From a virus, in IMG/VR virus record IMGVR_UViG_3300009151_000250, positions 1 through 30,850 of that record: a stretch of 30,850 bases of DNA; one strand, written 5' to 3'. A model generated the notes under the pieces. That model was given only the letters and a program-made list of their open reading frames with translations, searched no databases and had not been told where the DNA came from. Both the position numbers and the translations under genes were made by a program. Below are positions 2,487 to 30,850 of the stretch, piece by piece; position 1 is the first letter of the stretch; every line of letters begins with the position of its first letter.

Positions 2487-2572
2487 GAAAAAAAAAGAAA
2501 AGGGTAAAGTAGAGTACTGCCTTGGGAGTAGGAGTAGTTTATTGTATCCGGTGTTGTAAGTACTTTTTTAAC

Positions 2573-3640
2573 GTGAAACCTAGCACCTACATACTCTTTA
2601 TACTTAAACGTAGAGAAGACTTTAACCCTATAAAGCACAATCCTAAAGGGCTGGGTACGGGGTTGTTTAATTCGGCTTCGTTTATGGTGGATATGCTTAA
2701 TAAAGCTGGTATACAGGCCAGTATAGAAGTGGCCATTGACAACAACTGTATTGATCGGTTGGTTACCAAGCACAAACCCACACACGTTATTATTGAAGCT
2801 CTGTGGGTGGTGCCGACTAAATTTGCTGTACTAACCGAACTACACCCCACAGTTAAGTGGATTGTACGGTTACATAGTGAGATGCCTTTTATGGCTGGAG
2901 AGGGTATGGCAATGAACTGGATCGGGGATTACATTGTAAATCCTAACGTACTATTGGGTGTTAATGCCTCGCGCATGCTTGATGAGGTACGTACCTATGT
3001 ACGTATTAAAACAGGATACAATAACAAACAAATTAAAGATAAAGTCCTGTACTTACCTAATTACTATCCACAGGGCTATTGTACTTCAAAAGGTATATCC
3101 CGTAAAAAGACTTGGGTAGATGTGGGGTGTTTTGGTGCCGTGCGCCCATTAAAGAACCATTTATTACAGGCCTTTGCTGCTTTGAAGTTTGCTACAGAAG
3201 TGGGCAAAGAGTTACGCTTTCATATAAATGTGGGTAGAGAGGAAATGAAAGGACAACCAGTACTGCATAACTTACAAGGATTGTTTATGCAATTAGCCAG
3301 TACCGGTCATGAATTAATAATGCATGAGTGGGTGCCAAGAGAGCAGTTCTTAGCATTGTGTAGACAGATGGATATTGGTATGCAATGTAACTTTAGTGAA
3401 ACGTTTAATATAGTTGGAGCCGATTTAATAAGTCAAGGCATACCCTTAGTAGCTACTTCAGAGGTACCCTGGTCTTGTAATTTGTTTAATGCAGACCCAA
3501 CACAAAGTGATCATATAGCTCAGGCCCTAAAACTTAGCTATTACTTTCCTGGGGTTAATGTTTGGTTAAATCAGCGGAATTTAACTAAGTATACAAATCA
3601 AACCGATAACGTTTGGTATAAACAATTTAAAACTATATGA
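2573..3640 (+). CDS. GT4-type (GT-B fold) glycosyltransferase, about 355 aa
   Basis: The C-terminal half has the hallmark GT-B donor-binding layout: a β-strand with VGCFGAVRPLKN, then HINVGREE, then HEWVPREQFLALCRQMDIG, and finally FSETFNIVGADLISQGIPLV, which carries the conserved acidic residue that contacts the sugar nucleotide. The N-terminal half (GLGTGLFNSASFMVDML and HVIIEALWV) resembles the acceptor domain. It would transfer a sugar from a nucleotide sugar; substrate unknown. I prefer GTG at 2573; a TTG 17 codons earlier is possible but would translate a poor Cys-rich leader. The next gene overlaps its stop by 4 nt, so the two are translationally coupled. Confidence 0.8.
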   Translation: MKPSTYILFILKRREDFNPIKHNPKGLGTGLFNSASFMVDMLNKAGIQASIEVAIDNNCIDRLVTKHKPTHVIIEALWVVPTKFAVLTELHPTVKWIVRLHSEMPFMAGEGMAMNWIGDYIVNPNVLLGVNASRMLDEVRTYVRIKTGYNNKQIKDKVLYLPNYYPQGYCTSKGISRKKTWVDVGCFGAVRPLKNHLLQAFAALKFATEVGKELRFHINVGREEMKGQPVLHNLQGLFMQLASTGHELIMHEWVPREQFLALCRQMDIGMQCNFSETFNIVGADLISQGIPLVATSEVPWSCNLFNADPTQSDHIAQALKLSYYFPGVNVWLNQRNLTKYTNQTDNVWYKQFKTI

Positions 3641-3834
3641 AACGCACTGTAAAATTTTTTAACTGGGTACAAGGCAAGCTTGAATGTATGGAGCATGAAT
3701 TTGCTAACCATAACGAAGCCTTAGAGTTTACTCATAAGCACAAGCACCATCACCACAGTATAAAGATGTTTAACAGTCAGGGTATTTGTATACATGAAGT
3801 AGCTAACCAGCCTACTCCTCCTACGTACGCATAA
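3637..3834 (+). CDS. Small His-rich hypothetical protein, 65 aa
   Basis: It starts inside the stop of the glycosyltransferase (ATGA overlap), so expression is coupled. It begins VKFFNWVQGKLECMEHEF and has a His cluster (HKHKHHHH, about residues 33-40), then KMFNSQGICIHEV. The pattern (a short β-strand, a helix with EALEFTHK, another strand) looks like a small α/β domain seen in several T4-like marine phages, with no known function. The His run could bind metal. Its stop is directly adjacent to the stop of the convergent gene at 3835. Confidence 0.65.
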   Translation: MKRTVKFFNWVQGKLECMEHEFANHNEALEFTHKHKHHHHSIKMFNSQGICIHEVANQPTPPTYA

Positions 3835-4665
3835 TTAGAACTCGTTGCCAGGCATTTTCATAGCTAGTTTGCCTGCTTCTCTAGTTTTATTATAGTTAGG
3901 CTTTAATGTAAGTCTGTTTAAAAAGTTAAGCGACATAACCTTGTTTACATCTACTGCATTTAATACTTCGCAGGAGTGTTCTGGTTGTATAGTGTTACGT
4001 GGTATAGGTATTATCTGAAGCAATGGGGTACCAGCTTTAATTATCTCTCGACCTTGTAGTACGTGCCAATATAGTTGTACGTTTATAGCCGGCGATATAT
4101 ATGGATCTAAAATACCTGTAGCAGCTGTAAACCGGTCCTCTTCGTTGTAGTGTACGGAAGAAAACAAATAAATAAAATTGTCATCTGGTATTATATTCCA
4201 ACCGGTGTTTATTTTTAATACTGTCTTTAATGAGTTACGTGGTACCTTTACATAATCATGAAACTGAGCCTTACTGTGAGACTGTAATGCATTTGTGGCG
4301 ATAATATTATCCTGGTCTGGCCTAAATTGCATACCTGTATCTGCAGGGGATAGAGTAGAGGCCTGAAATGTAACCCCATCTCCGTTAGTGTCTACCGCAA
4401 AATCAAAAGGACAAGGTACTATGTACCCGGTGTTCATATACTCTTTTACAGCTGGACAATTTATCATGAAACCTAGTCCACGAAAACTAAACTCATGTAT
4501 AGGGCATTTTTTAATCCGCTTTGTTTCGGTATTAAAATCTTTTGCATTCCGTTCTAACCAATCTCTTTTTAGTTCACTTGCTCTGTATATAGGATATGAA
4601 GGAGCAACTCCAGGTAAAATGTTCACAAAACGAATTTTAGGTTTCTTTTTAAAGAAATTAAACAT
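3835..4665 (-). CDS. Conserved-looking hypothetical protein, 276 aa
   Basis: The protein opens MFNFFKKKPKIRF, then a soluble Pro- and aromatic-rich body with VPCPFDFAVDTNGDGVTFQ (about residues 83-101) and a later KINTGWNIIPDDNFIYLF. Near the C-terminus AGTPLLQIIPIPR resembles a double-stranded β-helix edge. There is no signal peptide or membrane segment, and I see no catalytic motif. It is a lone leftward gene between two rightward runs. Its promoter must lie in the 61 nt shared with the divergent methyltransferase gene; the leftward side lacks the late element, so its timing may differ. Function unknown. Confidence 0.8.
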   Translation of the reverse strand: MFNFFKKKPKIRFVNILPGVAPSYPIYRASELKRDWLERNAKDFNTETKRIKKCPIHEFSFRGLGFMINCPAVKEYMNTGYIVPCPFDFAVDTNGDGVTFQASTLSPADTGMQFRPDQDNIIATNALQSHSKAQFHDYVKVPRNSLKTVLKINTGWNIIPDDNFIYLFSSVHYNEEDRFTAATGILDPYISPAINVQLYWHVLQGREIIKAGTPLLQIIPIPRNTIQPEHSCEVLNAVDVNKVMSLNFLNRLTLKPNYNKTREAGKLAMKMPGNEF

Positions 4666-4709
4666 ATCTTTATAATAACTACATTATTGAAAAAAGCCAA
4701 TAATAATAA

Positions 4710-4717
4710 TATAAGTA
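4710..4717 (+). promoter_or_regulatory. T4-late-type promoter element for the methyltransferase gene
   Basis: TATAAGTA ends 10 nt before the ATG at 4727, giving a predicted 4-nt leader. The same bases could act as a -10 box for a host-type -35 TTGAAA at 4687-4692 (17-bp spacer to TATAAG), so dual use is possible. Confidence 0.45.
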
Positions 4718-4726
4718 TATGTTCTT

Positions 4727-5299
4727 ATGCAACGTTGGGACGTTATTAATACATTAATACAGAAATATAACTATAAAAGTTATTTAGAAATAGGCACCCA
4801 GCACGGTAATTGTTTTAGAGAAGTTAAATGTGAGCACAAAGTTTGTGTTGATTCCTCTAAAGACTTCGATCAGTTAACTCATACAATGACAAGTGATGAT
4901 TACTTTAAACAGTATAGCGATAAGTTTGATATTATTTTTGTAGATGCATTACATACAGAAGAACAGACAATCAAGGATATAAACAACAGTCTTGTAATAT
5001 TGAATGACAACGGTACGGTAGTGGCACATGATTGCTTACCGGATGGGGAAGGGGCAACTGGCATGCATGCATGTGGTACCTCTTATATGGCTCCAATATG
5101 GTTTAGGACTACTATTACAAACGTTACTGTTCAGGTTGTAGACACGGATGCCGGTTGCGGTATATTTCGCAAAGGCACAAATCCATTATACACTAAAGAA
5201 TGTTACGACACTGCCAAGCAATTTAAATACTTTAACGAAAATAAAAAAGAACTAGTAAACGTTATTAGTGTTGAAGAGTTTAACACTCTGTTTAAATAA
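4727..5299 (+). CDS. Class I SAM-dependent methyltransferase, 190 aa
   Basis: The Rossmann signature is clear: motif I YLEIGTQHGNCF (about residues 19-30) would bind SAM. VCVDSS follows as the acidic end of strand 2, FDIIFVDALHTEEQTIKDI covers motif IV, and NGTVVAHDCLP the following strand. The VDALH and AHDC pattern is typical of the small-molecule or sugar O-methyltransferase group found beside glycosyltransferases in glycan loci. Length is normal. It lies 7 nt before a GT2 glycosyltransferase, which suggests joint work on a glycan. Acceptor unknown. Confidence 0.8.
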   Translation: MQRWDVINTLIQKYNYKSYLEIGTQHGNCFREVKCEHKVCVDSSKDFDQLTHTMTSDDYFKQYSDKFDIIFVDALHTEEQTIKDINNSLVILNDNGTVVAHDCLPDGEGATGMHACGTSYMAPIWFRTTITNVTVQVVDTDAGCGIFRKGTNPLYTKECYDTAKQFKYFNENKKELVNVISVEEFNTLFK

Positions 5300-5306
5300 A
5301 CAGTAA

Positions 5307-6008
5307 ATGAAGTTCTCTATCGTTATACCCACTTATAATCGTTGGGATTTAGTTAAAAACTGTGTTGATAGTATTGTTAATACTATTGACTTGACAGATG
5401 GAGAAGTCATTGTTTCTTCTAATGGTTGTACGGATAATACCCCGGCTAATGTAGCTAGCACTTATGCAGGTAAAAATATATACTGTATACATTGGCACAA
5501 ACCACTAGGCTATTCCAAAGCAGTTAATATGGGTATGTCTGCTGCTACTGGAGATATTGTTATTTTGTTAAACAACGATGCAGCATTTTTAGGTAGACAT
5601 TGGTATGATGTGTTAACATTGCCATTTGTTACTACTCCTACAGCTGGTGTTACCGGGGTTATTAAACGTTACCAAGGTGGTAAGCCATGGATTCTTTTCT
5701 TTTGCGCAGCAATAAAACGGGAAGTTATTAACACTATAGGCTTACTTGATGAAACATTTACTCCAGGTTGTGGTGAAGATATTGACTACTGTATTCGAGC
5801 TTTTGACAAAGGCTTTACTATACATCAAGTTCCCGAACAAGTTTTAGAGCATGTTGCAGGGACAAACAAAATGTCTGGCTCGTTTCCTATATACCATGAC
5901 GGTGGAGTTACTGTTAACAAGAACCCTAACCAGTCTGCTATATATGCTCGTAATATGAAGATAGTTATGGATAGATACGGTCCACCAACAGATGGGCCGA
6001 TATTATAA
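5307..6008 (+). CDS. GT2-family glycosyltransferase, 233 aa
   Basis: It starts FSIVIPTYNRWDLVKNCVDS, the standard first strand and helix of GT-A family 2 enzymes. EVIVSSNGCTDNT, then GYSKAVNMGM and IVILLNNDA follow. The metal-binding DxD is replaced by N89-N90-D91, as in rhamnosyltransferase-like GT2s. Later comes GCGEDIDYCIRA, with the ED pair that usually supplies the catalytic base. Length fits a single-domain enzyme with no membrane segment. It follows the methyltransferase by 7 nt. Donor and acceptor sugars cannot be read from sequence. Confidence 0.87.
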   Translation: MKFSIVIPTYNRWDLVKNCVDSIVNTIDLTDGEVIVSSNGCTDNTPANVASTYAGKNIYCIHWHKPLGYSKAVNMGMSAATGDIVILLNNDAAFLGRHWYDVLTLPFVTTPTAGVTGVIKRYQGGKPWILFFCAAIKREVINTIGLLDETFTPGCGEDIDYCIRAFDKGFTIHQVPEQVLEHVAGTNKMSGSFPIYHDGGVTVNKNPNQSAIYARNMKIVMDRYGPPTDGPIL

Positions 6009-6058
6009 GTAGTGTATTTTTTATTAAAGCAACTACCATATATCTTTTGGTAGGATTA

Positions 6059-6066
6059 AGTAAGTA
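6059..6066 (+). promoter_or_regulatory. T4-late-type promoter element upstream of 6073
   Basis: AGTAAGTA ends 7 nt before the ATG, so the predicted transcript starts 1 nt before the start codon. A 6-bp inverted repeat (CTACCA 6033-6038, TGGTAG 6048-6053) lies just upstream. Confidence 0.45.
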
Positions 6067-6072
6067 TATCAT

Positions 6073-6465
6073 ATGAAACGTAACATTTACACATTATTGG
6101 CGGAGAAGTACTCTATAGTACAAGAAAATCCGCTTGAAGTAGAAATTGAACCAGGTGGTACTCATAAGTCAGATCATAATGTGGAAATGGCTCGTACTAA
6201 AGCACATCAAGCAGCTGAAGTAGCTCCTGCTTTACATCATTTGTTAGACCAAATGGATGCAAATGCACCATTACAGGCTTGGATGGTTACTCATGTTACT
6301 CAAGCAGCTGATATGCTACAAGATGTATTAGCTAAGTTAAGAGAAGAGAACGAAGAACCAAATATGGAACCAGTTAAAGAAACAGATTTTGAAACACCAG
6401 AAGGTGATGGTGAAAACACTAGCAACACAATGGGTTCAGACGGTAACGTAAATGGAGCAATGTAA
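6073..6465 (+). CDS. Putative internal virion protein, 130 aa
   Basis: Residues 1-18 read MKRNIYTLLAEKYSIVQE; L9-A10-E11 fits the gp21 (L/I)-x-E cleavage rule and resembles the start of the gene at 2011. The middle is a His/Ala-rich helical region (HKSDHNVEMARTKAHQAAEV, about residues 32-51) and the C-terminus is an acidic tail with GDGENTSN. No enzyme motif. A late-type promoter element precedes it, and a similar gene follows by one base. I infer an internal head protein or scaffold-associated cargo; function is unproven. Confidence 0.65.
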   Translation: MKRNIYTLLAEKYSIVQENPLEVEIEPGGTHKSDHNVEMARTKAHQAAEVAPALHHLLDQMDANAPLQAWMVTHVTQAADMLQDVLAKLREENEEPNMEPVKETDFETPEGDGENTSNTMGSDGNVNGAM

Positions 6466-6466
6466 T

Positions 6467-6919
6467 ATGAAAAAATACAATTATACAAAAAGCAATCTCG
6501 GTCAAAAGTATCAAATCTTAACAGAAAGATACTTCCAAGAAATTACTAAAGAAATGATTCACCCAGAACATTGGGATGAAGCACTTAATCATCCAAAGCT
6601 ACACTGCTTTAAAGAAGATGGTACTCTTAAGCAAGAGTGTATGAATGCTTTTCAGTCTTCCCCTATGGAGCAGGTACCTGAAACAAGTGAAGGTCCAGGT
6701 TTAGTTGCAGGTGGAGAAGATTCAATGGCTGGTTATGCAGGTGTTAATGCTATGGGTGGTCTTGAAGAAGGTAAACACCACCAACAATTAATTATGCAGC
6801 ATTTGCATAACTTAGAAGAGTGTTCTGGTAATTGGGCTGATTCTGGTCATCCTGATGCAGCTTTGTTTCATGAAGCTGTACAGCATTTGAAAGAATACAT
6901 GCAAGAGTGCTCTTACTAA
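6467..6919 (+). CDS. Putative internal virion protein, 150 aa
   Basis: I choose ATG 6467 because GGAG (6454-6457) sits 9 nt upstream and the ATG is 1 nt past the previous stop; the in-frame ATG at 6452 overlaps that gene. The N-terminus has LGQKYQILTERYFQEI, with an L-T-E triplet of the prohead-protease type. A Gly/Met/Ala-rich linker (GLVAGGEDSMAGYAG) leads to a His- and Glu-rich helical domain (HHQQLIMQHLHNLEECSGNW, ending LKEYMQECSY). It is co-transcribed with the preceding gene. Family not recognised; an internal head protein is the best guess. Confidence 0.65.
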   Translation: MKKYNYTKSNLGQKYQILTERYFQEITKEMIHPEHWDEALNHPKLHCFKEDGTLKQECMNAFQSSPMEQVPETSEGPGLVAGGEDSMAGYAGVNAMGGLEEGKHHQQLIMQHLHNLEECSGNWADSGHPDAALFHEAVQHLKEYMQECSY

Positions 6920-24945: not shown

Positions 24946-25998
24946 ATGATACTCAAAGATGTAACAGCTACTATTTCTACGAGAGGGCGTCATAACACTA
25001 CATTACCTTTAGTTTTATCATCTCTTTTAAATCAAAATAAAAAACCTGGTAAAGTTTACGTGTATGACGATAACGATACTTTTGATGATCCAAGTAAGAA
25101 CGATGTACTTAAAAATATATTAACGGCTATGTCGGTGTGTGGTATTATGTGGTACTGGGAGCCTGGTTCTCGGATTGGTCAAGTAGCTAATCATGAAAGA
25201 GCTAGGAAATCCTGTACTACAACATATCTGTGGCGTATTGATGATGATAATATGCTCTTACCTAATACTTTAGAGGTAATGTATGATACTATAAATGCAG
25301 ATCCGGGTATTGGCGCAGTAAGCCCTTCTATAGTAGACCCTAAAAACTTAATGAACAACGCATTAGCTTCTAATAAAATGGAAGATATATTTTTAGGATT
25401 AAATGAACAGTGGAATTATAAACAAGAAATACAGCTTAAAGAAGTTGAGCATTTACAAGGCAGTACGTTTATGTATAGGGTTGCTGCTGCAAATCATGGT
25501 TATGACTTAACTTTATCTAGAAAAGGGCACCGGGAAGAAACTATATTCACGTATGAAATGGTACGAGCTGGATGGAAATTAATAGCGATACTTGGCTTAA
25601 CTACTTGGCATTTTCATTATCAGTCTGGCGGTATTCGTAGTGAAACAGATAATAGAATGGCTCATAATGACGAATTACACTTTAGAGACAAGTTAAATGA
25701 ATGGGGTATCAAACCAAGTAATTATAAGTTTTACTTTTTAGATAGTGGTCGTGGAGATCATTATATATTTAAAATGATGATACCAGAACTCTTAAAACGT
25801 TATAAAAACCATAAAATAGTTATTGCGTGTTGTTGGCCGGATTGTTTTTGGGATATTACAGACGAAAGAGTAAGATTATGTTCAATAGCAGATGCAGCTC
25901 CTTTTGTCAATAAAGATACTCATAATGTTTACAAATATATGTTCGATAATAACTGGAAAGGTCAAGTTATTGATGCTTATAAAAAGATATTACTATGA
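24946..25998 (+). CDS. GT2 glycosyltransferase fused to the N-terminal half of a GT9-like enzyme, 350 aa
   Basis: Residues 1-235 form a GT-A domain: VTATISTRGRHNTTLPLVLS, then VYVYDDND, LWRIDDDNML with the DDD motif (99-101), and WHFHYQSGG near 221. Residues 255-350 form a second domain: FYFLDSGRGDHYIFKMMIPE with G268-R-G-D-H272, then HKIVIACCWPDCF. This looks like the first half of heptosyltransferase-type GT9 proteins, where a G-x-G-D-H turn follows strand 1. The next gene overlaps by 4 nt and carries the GT9 second half. The first domain could transfer one sugar and the pair another. Confidence 0.75.
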   Translation: MILKDVTATISTRGRHNTTLPLVLSSLLNQNKKPGKVYVYDDNDTFDDPSKNDVLKNILTAMSVCGIMWYWEPGSRIGQVANHERARKSCTTTYLWRIDDDNMLLPNTLEVMYDTINADPGIGAVSPSIVDPKNLMNNALASNKMEDIFLGLNEQWNYKQEIQLKEVEHLQGSTFMYRVAAANHGYDLTLSRKGHREETIFTYEMVRAGWKLIAILGLTTWHFHYQSGGIRSETDNRMAHNDELHFRDKLNEWGIKPSNYKFYFLDSGRGDHYIFKMMIPELLKRYKNHKIVIACCWPDCFWDITDERVRLCSIADAAPFVNKDTHNVYKYMFDNNWKGQVIDAYKKILL

Positions 25999-26495
25999 AA
26001 ATTATAATTTGCCCATATTCTCAAAAGCTTCCTAAAGAAAAAATAACTGATAAAAATCCTTCAGGGGAAAATCCAAAAAATTATCCGTACTGGGAAGAGT
26101 TTATACAGCTATTAAAGCAACAATTACCCGATATAGAAGTAATACAAACCGGTGTTACGTCTGAACCTATTTTAAAGGGAGTAGATACTATTAAGCATAA
26201 TTTGTTTCAAAAAGATTTATTGGAAGTTGTAAAGCAATGCGATGCTTGGTTTTCAGTAGACAATCTATTTAATCATTTCTGTACGTATTATAAAATTCCA
26301 AACGGTTTTGTGTTGTTCGGACAATCTGATCCGAATATATATGGTTATAAGCAAAATACCAATTTAATTAAACACCGAAAATATTTAAGACCTGATCAAT
26401 TCGGTTATTGGTGGGAAAGACCATATATTAAAGAGGCGTTTGTAAGTGCAGAAGAACTGTTAAAAGTAGTACTACCAGTACTTAAGGCCTCCTAA
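25995..26495 (+). CDS. C-terminal half of a GT9-like glycosyltransferase, 166 aa
   Basis: It begins KIIICPYSQK and continues KNYPYWEEFIQLLKQQL, IEVIQTGVTSEPIL, HNLFQKDLLEVVKQCDAWFS and DNLFNHFCTYY. This is the donor-binding domain of heptosyltransferase-like enzymes: a nucleotide-binding strand, a helix, then I-x-Q-x-G and the S-V-D-N box before the acceptor-side helix. On its own it lacks the acceptor domain. That half is at the end of the upstream gene, and the two genes overlap by 4 nt (ATGA). I read them as two chains of one enzyme. Confidence 0.7.
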   Translation: MKIIICPYSQKLPKEKITDKNPSGENPKNYPYWEEFIQLLKQQLPDIEVIQTGVTSEPILKGVDTIKHNLFQKDLLEVVKQCDAWFSVDNLFNHFCTYYKIPNGFVLFGQSDPNIYGYKQNTNLIKHRKYLRPDQFGYWWERPYIKEAFVSAEELLKVVLPVLKAS

Positions 26496-29614: not shown

Positions 29615-30850
29615 TCAAAGTCTGGTGTACCCCCAGTTAATTACCCGAGAAGCTCCGCTATTATTAGTGATGTCAAATGTAAACACATTGGTATTTGCAA
29701 CTGCTGGAGATGAAGTACTAATAGTACCAGCCGTACCGATAATTTGAGTGGGTATAGAGGTAAGAACTAAGGCGTTCCCGGTTAAGTAATACCAAGCATA
29801 TTGTACTCCGATTACAGGAACGTTAGTATTTGTAACAGTCGCGGTTGCATTCCACACACAAATACCGTTTGGAATATTACCATTAACCCACATTGAATAA
29901 GTGTAACCATTGGGTACTGTAAAGCTTACGGTATTAGCACCAGAAGATAATGTCCAGGATCCTGTTGTACTGGGGTAGCTTAAACCTGAATAACCAGATG
30001 CTCCGTTAGAACCGATAGTGCCGTTTGTACCAGAGAAACCAGAATAACCAGATGCTCCATTAGAGCCAGTAGTACCGTTTGTACCAGAAAAACCGCTATA
30101 GCCTGAAGTACCGGAATAATAGCTACCGGCTGTATCAATTTGCTCAACTATAAAATAACAAAAACTGAGATTTAATGCGCTTGCACTTGAAAAAGTAGAT
30201 TTTAATGCAACTTGTGTTTGAGTTGTAGTAGTCACTACTGCTTCTGCTGTTGGCTGCCAATTGGCAGAAGCAACAAGATTTACAGCCAATACTCCACCAG
30301 CATTACCTATATTAGTATTACCGTTAGTAACATTTATCCATTGATAATCTATTTCACCATTAGATACATTATTAGCTAATGCCAATGCTGCTCTTAAATT
30401 ATAAGTTTTATTAGCTGCTAATGTAACATAACCATTGGCACTATTATAAGAAATAGCACCTGCAGATAATACTGTACCGCTTAAAGTGTATATGCTGTTT
30501 GCTGGAACCACAGAACCACCAGTTGCATTAAAATATAACCAATCTTTAGCTATAAAATTACCTGCAGGACCGGCTGGACCTTGAGATCCAGAATAACCAC
30601 TAAAACCAGAAGCACCAGCATTACCGTTATTGCCTTGTGCCCCTGAATAACCAGAAAAGCCAGATATTCCGATATTAACGCTACTACCAGAATAGCCTGA
30701 TGAACCATTAGTACCTGAATAGCCTGATGAACCATTAGTACCAGAATAGCCTGATGAACCATTAGTACCAGAATAGCCTGATGAACCATTAGTACCAGAA
30801 TAGCCAGAAGTACCTATACCGCTAAAACCTGAATAACCTGAAACACCTAA
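29615..30850 (-). CDS. Collagen-like tail fibre or surface protein (partial, N-terminus outside)
   Basis: The leftward frame is open from the right edge to TGA at 29615-29617; internal GTG/ATG codons are not the start. The visible part opens with Gly-X-Y repeats (GYSGTNGSS units, then GAQGNNGNAGASG and SGSQGPAGPAG). A β-rich domain follows (FIAKDWLYFNATGG, then YNLRAALALANNV and DYQWINVTNGNTNIG), of possible C1q/jelly-roll type. A second short collagen-like stretch and a C-terminal domain (SMWVNGNIPNGICVWNA, ending VINWGYTRL) complete it. Collagen-like triple helices make trimeric fibre stalks; a receptor-binding tip is likely. Lack of Lys in the repeats is notable. Confidence 0.8.
   Translation of the reverse strand, partial: LGVSGYSGFSGIGTSGYSGTNGSSGYSGTNGSSGYSGTNGSSGYSGTNGSSGYSGSSVNIGISGFSGYSGAQGNNGNAGASGFSGYSGSQGPAGPAGNFIAKDWLYFNATGGSVVPANSIYTLSGTVLSAGAISYNSANGYVTLAANKTYNLRAALALANNVSNGEIDYQWINVTNGNTNIGNAGGVLAVNLVASANWQPTAEAVVTTTTQTQVALKSTFSSASALNLSFCYFIVEQIDTAGSYYSGTSGYSGFSGTNGTTGSNGASGYSGFSGTNGTIGSNGASGYSGLSYPSTTGSWTLSSGANTVSFTVPNGYTYSMWVNGNIPNGICVWNATATVTNTNVPVIGVQYAWYYLTGNALVLTSIPTQIIGTAGTISTSSPAVANTNVFTFDITNNSGASRVINWGYTRL
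29992..30099 (-). repeat. Two 54-nt tandem repeats in the fibre gene
   Basis: Two near-identical 54-nt units (29992-30045 and 30046-30099) encode an 18-residue collagen-like module containing GFSGTNGT and GSNGASGYS. They separate the two globular domains of the fibre. Confidence 0.75.
30691..30798 (-). repeat. Four 27-nt tandem repeats in the fibre gene
   Basis: Four units of 27 nt (30691, 30718, 30745 and 30772 onward), identical except one base, encode the nonapeptide GTNGSSGYS, three Gly-X-Y triplets. High identity implies recent expansion or active slippage; copy number probably varies. Confidence 0.9.

Follow-up and report, generated by a model that had tools for sequence, protein, structure and literature searches.

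The window, by which is meant the whole stretch of viral DNA analysed here (30,850 bases), belongs to a T4-like myovirus, the gp20 portal, the gp23 major capsid protein and the gp21 protease all being present; the two genes considered in this study, A and B, are found between gp21 and a neck protein gene (Table 1). The coordinates of both reading frames and of the ATGA that they share, as given by the original prediction, agree with the ORF positions, and the motifs quoted there are present in the translated proteins, GRGDH toward the end of A, IEVIQTG and SVDNLFNH in B.

Table 1. Position of genes A and B in the window and of the domains and residues discussed in the text
Feature	Position	Strand	Remarks
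Gene A	24946-25998	+	ORF, 350 aa
GT2 (GT-A fold) glycosyltransferase domain, A residues 1-258	24946-25719	+	Pfam, AF2 fold
DDD of the GT2 domain, A residues 99-101 (metal/nucleotide-sugar motif)	25240-25248	+	Unchanged throughout alignments A2 and A5
A residues 259-350 and stop, putative reduced GT9 acceptor half (beta-alpha-beta plus helices)	25720-25998	+	Conserved as a unit; placed before the donor half
GRGDH loop, A residues 268-272	25747-25761	+	D271 aligned with catalytic D13 of WaaC
ATGA overlap, start of B on the stop of A	25995-25998	+	Same 4-nt overlap in 93/104 loci
Gene B	25995-26495	+	ORF, 166 aa; probable donor half of a GT9-type GT-B enzyme, stand-alone protein
K28 of B, equivalent to WaaC K192	26076-26078	+	89/90 relatives
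E57 of B, equivalent to WaaC E222	26163-26165	+	89/90 relatives
DNLFNH of B; D89 is the equivalent of D261 and H94 that of H266 of WaaC	26259-26276	+	Each in 90/90 relatives

The GT2 Domain of A

Both hallmarks of a GT2 enzyme, i.e., the GT-A fold and a DxD-type motif, are found in the N-terminal part of A. The protein matches Pfam PF00535 above the cut-off (E 8.9e-8); its AF2 model is of high confidence (pLDDT 93.3, pTM 0.88) and, in a comparison carried out with VIA-align in which nearly all rows cover residues 1-258, resembles GalNAc-T2 (Z 19.9) and SpsA (Z 18.5), while the motif is represented by the invariant DDD. The alignments behind the AF2 models described here leave out the annotated-phage record. 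In one orthologue of A (L129:1078-3258; IMGVR_UViG_3300033067_002502), the gene carries an intein, recognized by Pfam as Intein_splicing (5.2e-12) and LAGLIDADG_3, whose insertion point is the DDD metal motif of the GT2 domain (IWR / C...HN / CDDDDFPEP), a conserved active-site spot.

Gene B as the Donor Half of a GT9 Enzyme

Both profile comparison and the predicted fold strongly support the assignment of B to the donor half of GT-B enzymes of the GT9 type. The B protein of the window, taken by itself, has no Pfam match; 27 of 33 relatives match Pfam GT9 (PF01075), and the profile built on these 33 sequences retrieves GT9 entries alone from the PDB list, with weak E-values (0.13-0.38). Comparison by hhalign with 40 bacterial GT9s gives p ~4e-13, the score being 86, while none of 100 column shuffles exceeded 22.5. 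The AF2 model (pLDDT 95.1, pTM 0.90) leads to the same family: the top 28 rows of a Foldseek search of the PDB are all GT9, and in the VIA-align ranking all eight GT9 entries come first (Z 14.2-15.7; best non-GT9, 11.5). It is the C-terminal halves alone of the solved GT9 enzymes that are matched (Z ~15-15.7), the region covered by the model being 181-346 in WaaF and 179-323 in WaaC. GT28/MurG, considered as the closest family of B, was rejected, MurG (1nlm) reaching a Z of 9.4 versus 14.2-15.7 for the GT9 entries.

The C-Terminal Tail of A and Its Single-Chain Relatives

The assignment of the last ~91 residues of A is less direct. As an acceptor half, this tail would be small, since the same region of GT9 enzymes spans ~160-180 residues; no meaningful match was obtained in PDB and Pfam profile searches, and hhalign comparison with the 40 cellular GT9s gave a score within those of the shuffles, nothing being above chance. 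In that alignment, whose score lies inside the shuffled range, GRGDH falls in the same register as SSMGD of WaaC. A phage homologue is provided by gp53 of the Pelagibacter phage HTVC111P, annotated as a putative glycosyl transferase and matching GT9 with p 1.2e-8: its N- and C-terminal parts match the tail of A and B, respectively, in the same order, the N-terminal match scoring 32.7 versus a best value of 23.6 in 100 shuffles. The protein differs from the window pair in being a single chain of 293 aa, in having no GT2 domain, and in carrying GGxGKC instead of GxGDH.

Intact GT2-GT9 relatives exist too; indeed, three natural fusions were found in which the GT2 domain, the tail and the donor half follow one another in one chain, namely L312 (the same protein as L132 and L311), L314, and L315. 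The last of these scores above the curated cut-offs of Pfam for the two families, GT2 and GT9; its GT9 match sets in at residue 338, which lies within the tail. When the 98 non-redundant rows (3 fused, 95 split) are placed in a tree, the split L313 is sister to the fused L312 (SH-aLRT 96), so that the split and fused states have interconverted. The 1181 aa of the phage protein at L311:2280-5825 comprise GT2, methyltransferase, GT2 and GT2 domains, followed by the acceptor and donor halves of GT9.

In every locus holding both, the tail lies 5' of the donor half, and this order, together with the position of the hinge, fits an acceptor half, since B opens with the first strand of the C-domain. 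On balance, given the order, the register of the motif, the single-chain phage homologue gp53 and the natural fusions, the tail of A is regarded as a probable GT9 acceptor half, as in the original prediction, an identification that would be weak on its own.

Key Residues Distributed over Two Chains

The residues of WaaC that are key to catalysis and donor binding are D13, K192, E222, D261 and H266 (PMC3559599). The equivalents of the last four, as derived from the hhalign alignment, all lie in B (Table 1), whereas D13 would correspond to D271 of A, an equivalence that comes from the register of the GD loop and is the weaker one; D271 belongs to the GxGDH loop, whose G, G, D and H are invariant in 87/87 relatives. 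A role for this aspartate in GT9 enzymes is supported by TibC, where D110 is the candidate base and its replacement by Ala yields an inactive protein (PMC4358343). In MurG and Alg14, the N-terminal domain carries a GxGGH loop with an essential His (PMC8993221), which makes H272 of A a second candidate; moreover, the GGxGKC of gp53 is devoid of the Asp, so that the proposed role of D271 as a base does not hold throughout the wider group. Of the heptosyltransferase signature D(T/S)(G/A)xxH, B keeps only a part: the window sequence reads DNLFNH and most relatives have DSFFQH, so that D and H are retained and the third position is lost.

Proposed Mechanism

It is proposed, with a probability of about 0.8, that A and B together constitute one bifunctional glycan-building enzyme, consisting of a GT2 and a composite GT9-type transferase. 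The GT2 domain of A would transfer one sugar, while the tail of A and the B protein would pair into a complete GT-B site of the GT9 type adding another; the proposed catalytic Asp, D271, would be contributed by A and the nucleotide-sugar-binding residues K28, E57, D89 and H94 by B, and A, as the shared chain, would hold both sites together. The cut appears to lie in the hinge that joins the two domains of a GT-B enzyme, since the opening strand of the GT9 C-domain (WaaC 179) is also the start of B, and A ends just ahead of it; each chain would thus be one folded unit. The ATGA overlap is suggestive of translational coupling, in which B would be produced by re-initiation at a matched level. As to the target, a glycan of the virion or of the tail fibre would be the most likely guess.

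How the pair compares with known glycosyltransferases may be summarized as follows. With the GT9 heptosyltransferases WaaC, WaaF and TibC (CAZy GT9), B shares the donor-half fold, the motifs and the K192/E222/D261/H266 set, and A has a putative equivalent of D13; unlike these enzymes, the window pair consists of two chains, with a much reduced acceptor half fused behind a GT2 domain, and keeps the signature in part. As to membership in GT9/PF01075, the donor-half fold and profile are found, and the two halves are not in one polypeptide in the window. Alg13/Alg14 and the bacterial EpsE/EpsF are known cases in which a GT-B enzyme is divided at its domain hinge, one gene encoding the acceptor half and another the donor half, and in which the halves have repeatedly been fused again (PMC8993221). 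The likeness to these MurG/GT28 relatives consists in the cut at the hinge into two genes, the complex of the window pair being a proposed one; the phage-borne pair differs in belonging to GT9 and in having its acceptor half joined to a GT2 domain. By analogy, it is viewed as the GT9 counterpart of the known split GT-B Alg13/Alg14. The same pair with the same overlap is present in an isolated phage, the Methylophilaceae phage P19250A, whose genes 0025/0026, both annotated as hypothetical, are 36-40% identical to those of the window. A search of the open-access literature brought up neither a split GT9 nor a fusion between a GT9 acceptor half and a GT2, nor the phage pair itself.

A second, independent split of a GT-B enzyme, this time in GT9, with the acceptor half carried on another transferase and with fused versions available for comparison, would offer a clean system to understand why the hinge is cut and how a growing glycan passes from one transferase to the other; a function is also proposed for pairs filed as hypothetical or unnamed in hundreds of phage contigs. 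A much bolder extension, to which we would give less than even odds, is that of a phage-wide class of obligate two-chain GT9s with the acceptor half carried on a GT2, whose heterodimers would each attach first one sugar and then a second to a fibre or capsid protein of the virion, while lineages would alternate between the split and the fused form.

Possible Target

At diverse loci, the neighbours of the pair include collagen-like tail fibres, GT2 enzymes and methyltransferases (among them, some of the FkbM type), and in P19250A the pair comes after the tape-measure region. This neighbourhood and this position point to a virion glycan; a glycan of the virion or of the tail fibre is suspected as the target, and is offered only as a lead. 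GT9 enzymes, on the other hand, classically build the LPS core, and some of the neighbours match GtrB-like families of O-antigen conversion, so that it could be argued that what is modified by the pair is the host surface (LPS or some other glycan, so as to exclude other phages) and not a protein of the virion. We regard this as less likely, given that the genes of the window lie in the structural region, by gp21, gp23 and the neck genes, that those of P19250A follow the tape-measure region, and that the pair often stands beside collagen-like tail fibres together with methyltransferases.

Two other regions of the window are of note. A second sugar cluster occupies positions 2522-6919, with a weak glycosyltransferase match at 2522-3640, a methyltransferase-like gene at 4727-5299 and a GT2/galactosyltransferase-like gene at 5307-6008; at 29615-30850, a collagen-like tail-fibre protein, running past the end of the window, is a candidate glycosylation target.

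Alternative Readings and Conservation of the Split

The tail of A might instead be an accessory or oligomerisation domain of the GT2 enzyme, with B acting as a separate nucleotide-sugar-binding partner, or stand-alone mini-enzyme, that binds to it but forms no GT9 active site. The sequence link between the tail and GT9 is weak, the length of the tail may not suffice for a complete acceptor domain, and AF2 models A with confidence as a single rigid body of two domains (pTM 0.88), all of which would agree with such an arrangement; it is nevertheless judged improbable, because GxGDH is in register with the GD loop of GT9 and its D and H are invariant, because in gp53 and the three fusions the tail precedes the donor half within a single chain, as in GT9, and because the GT9 match of L315 begins within the tail. 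The composite GT9-type site formed by A and B is the reading retained here.

The original prediction had considered both a break and a deliberate two-chain design. The same gene order was found in 104 checked loci, a set that includes near-copies from overlapping scans, with the identical 4-nt overlap in 93 of them and identities down to ~32-36%; GT2, tail and donor half occur together in 243 loci, or 98 non-redundant rows after removal of near-copies, and in 95 of these rows they are distributed over two chains, against 3 with one chain; chance would be far from producing such an arrangement. Scans anchored on A and on B each recover the partner gene, apart from contig ends and the undecided locus L384, and the association is obligate either way. 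Median dN/dS values are 0.04 for the GT2 domain, 0.03 for the tail and 0.05 for B. A 163 aa SAM-methyltransferase-like gene, overlapping the stop of A, stands between the halves in nine loci of the 104-locus set (L023:3510-4000; likewise L024, L035 and L044 among others), which indicates that in some lineages the halves persist as separate genes.

A programmed frameshift at the junction, by which a complete GT2-GT9 chain would be made in addition to the two shorter proteins, might be invoked, given that the frames overlap by 4 nt and that fused forms are evidently tolerated. The slippery site for which the original prediction had proposed to check the junction is missing, however: none of the overlapping junctions checked contains a heptamer of the type X XXY YYZ, and there is no in-frame continuation, the frame of B being open upstream of its start for just 4-26 codons (4 in most junctions). 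Non-overlapping and interrupted arrangements are also tolerated in the family, and a frameshift is considered very improbable.

That a sequencing error or decay has recently cut a single GT2-GT9 frame in the window phage, as the intact versions in three contigs might suggest, is excluded for all practical purposes by the recurrence of the split, mostly with the same ATGA, across diverged phages, by the strong purifying selection on both parts, and by the fact that a whole gene can stand between the halves. As judged from these comparisons of sequences, the split is old and under selection rather than the product of error or decay, and of the two options raised by the original prediction, it is the two-chain design that is supported. 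Outside the phage contigs, a scan of bacterial and archaeal genomes detected the pair or the donor half on four MAG contigs only (L188-L191), from bins that include Nitrosotalea, Opitutae and Mucilaginibacter; these contigs may be viral.
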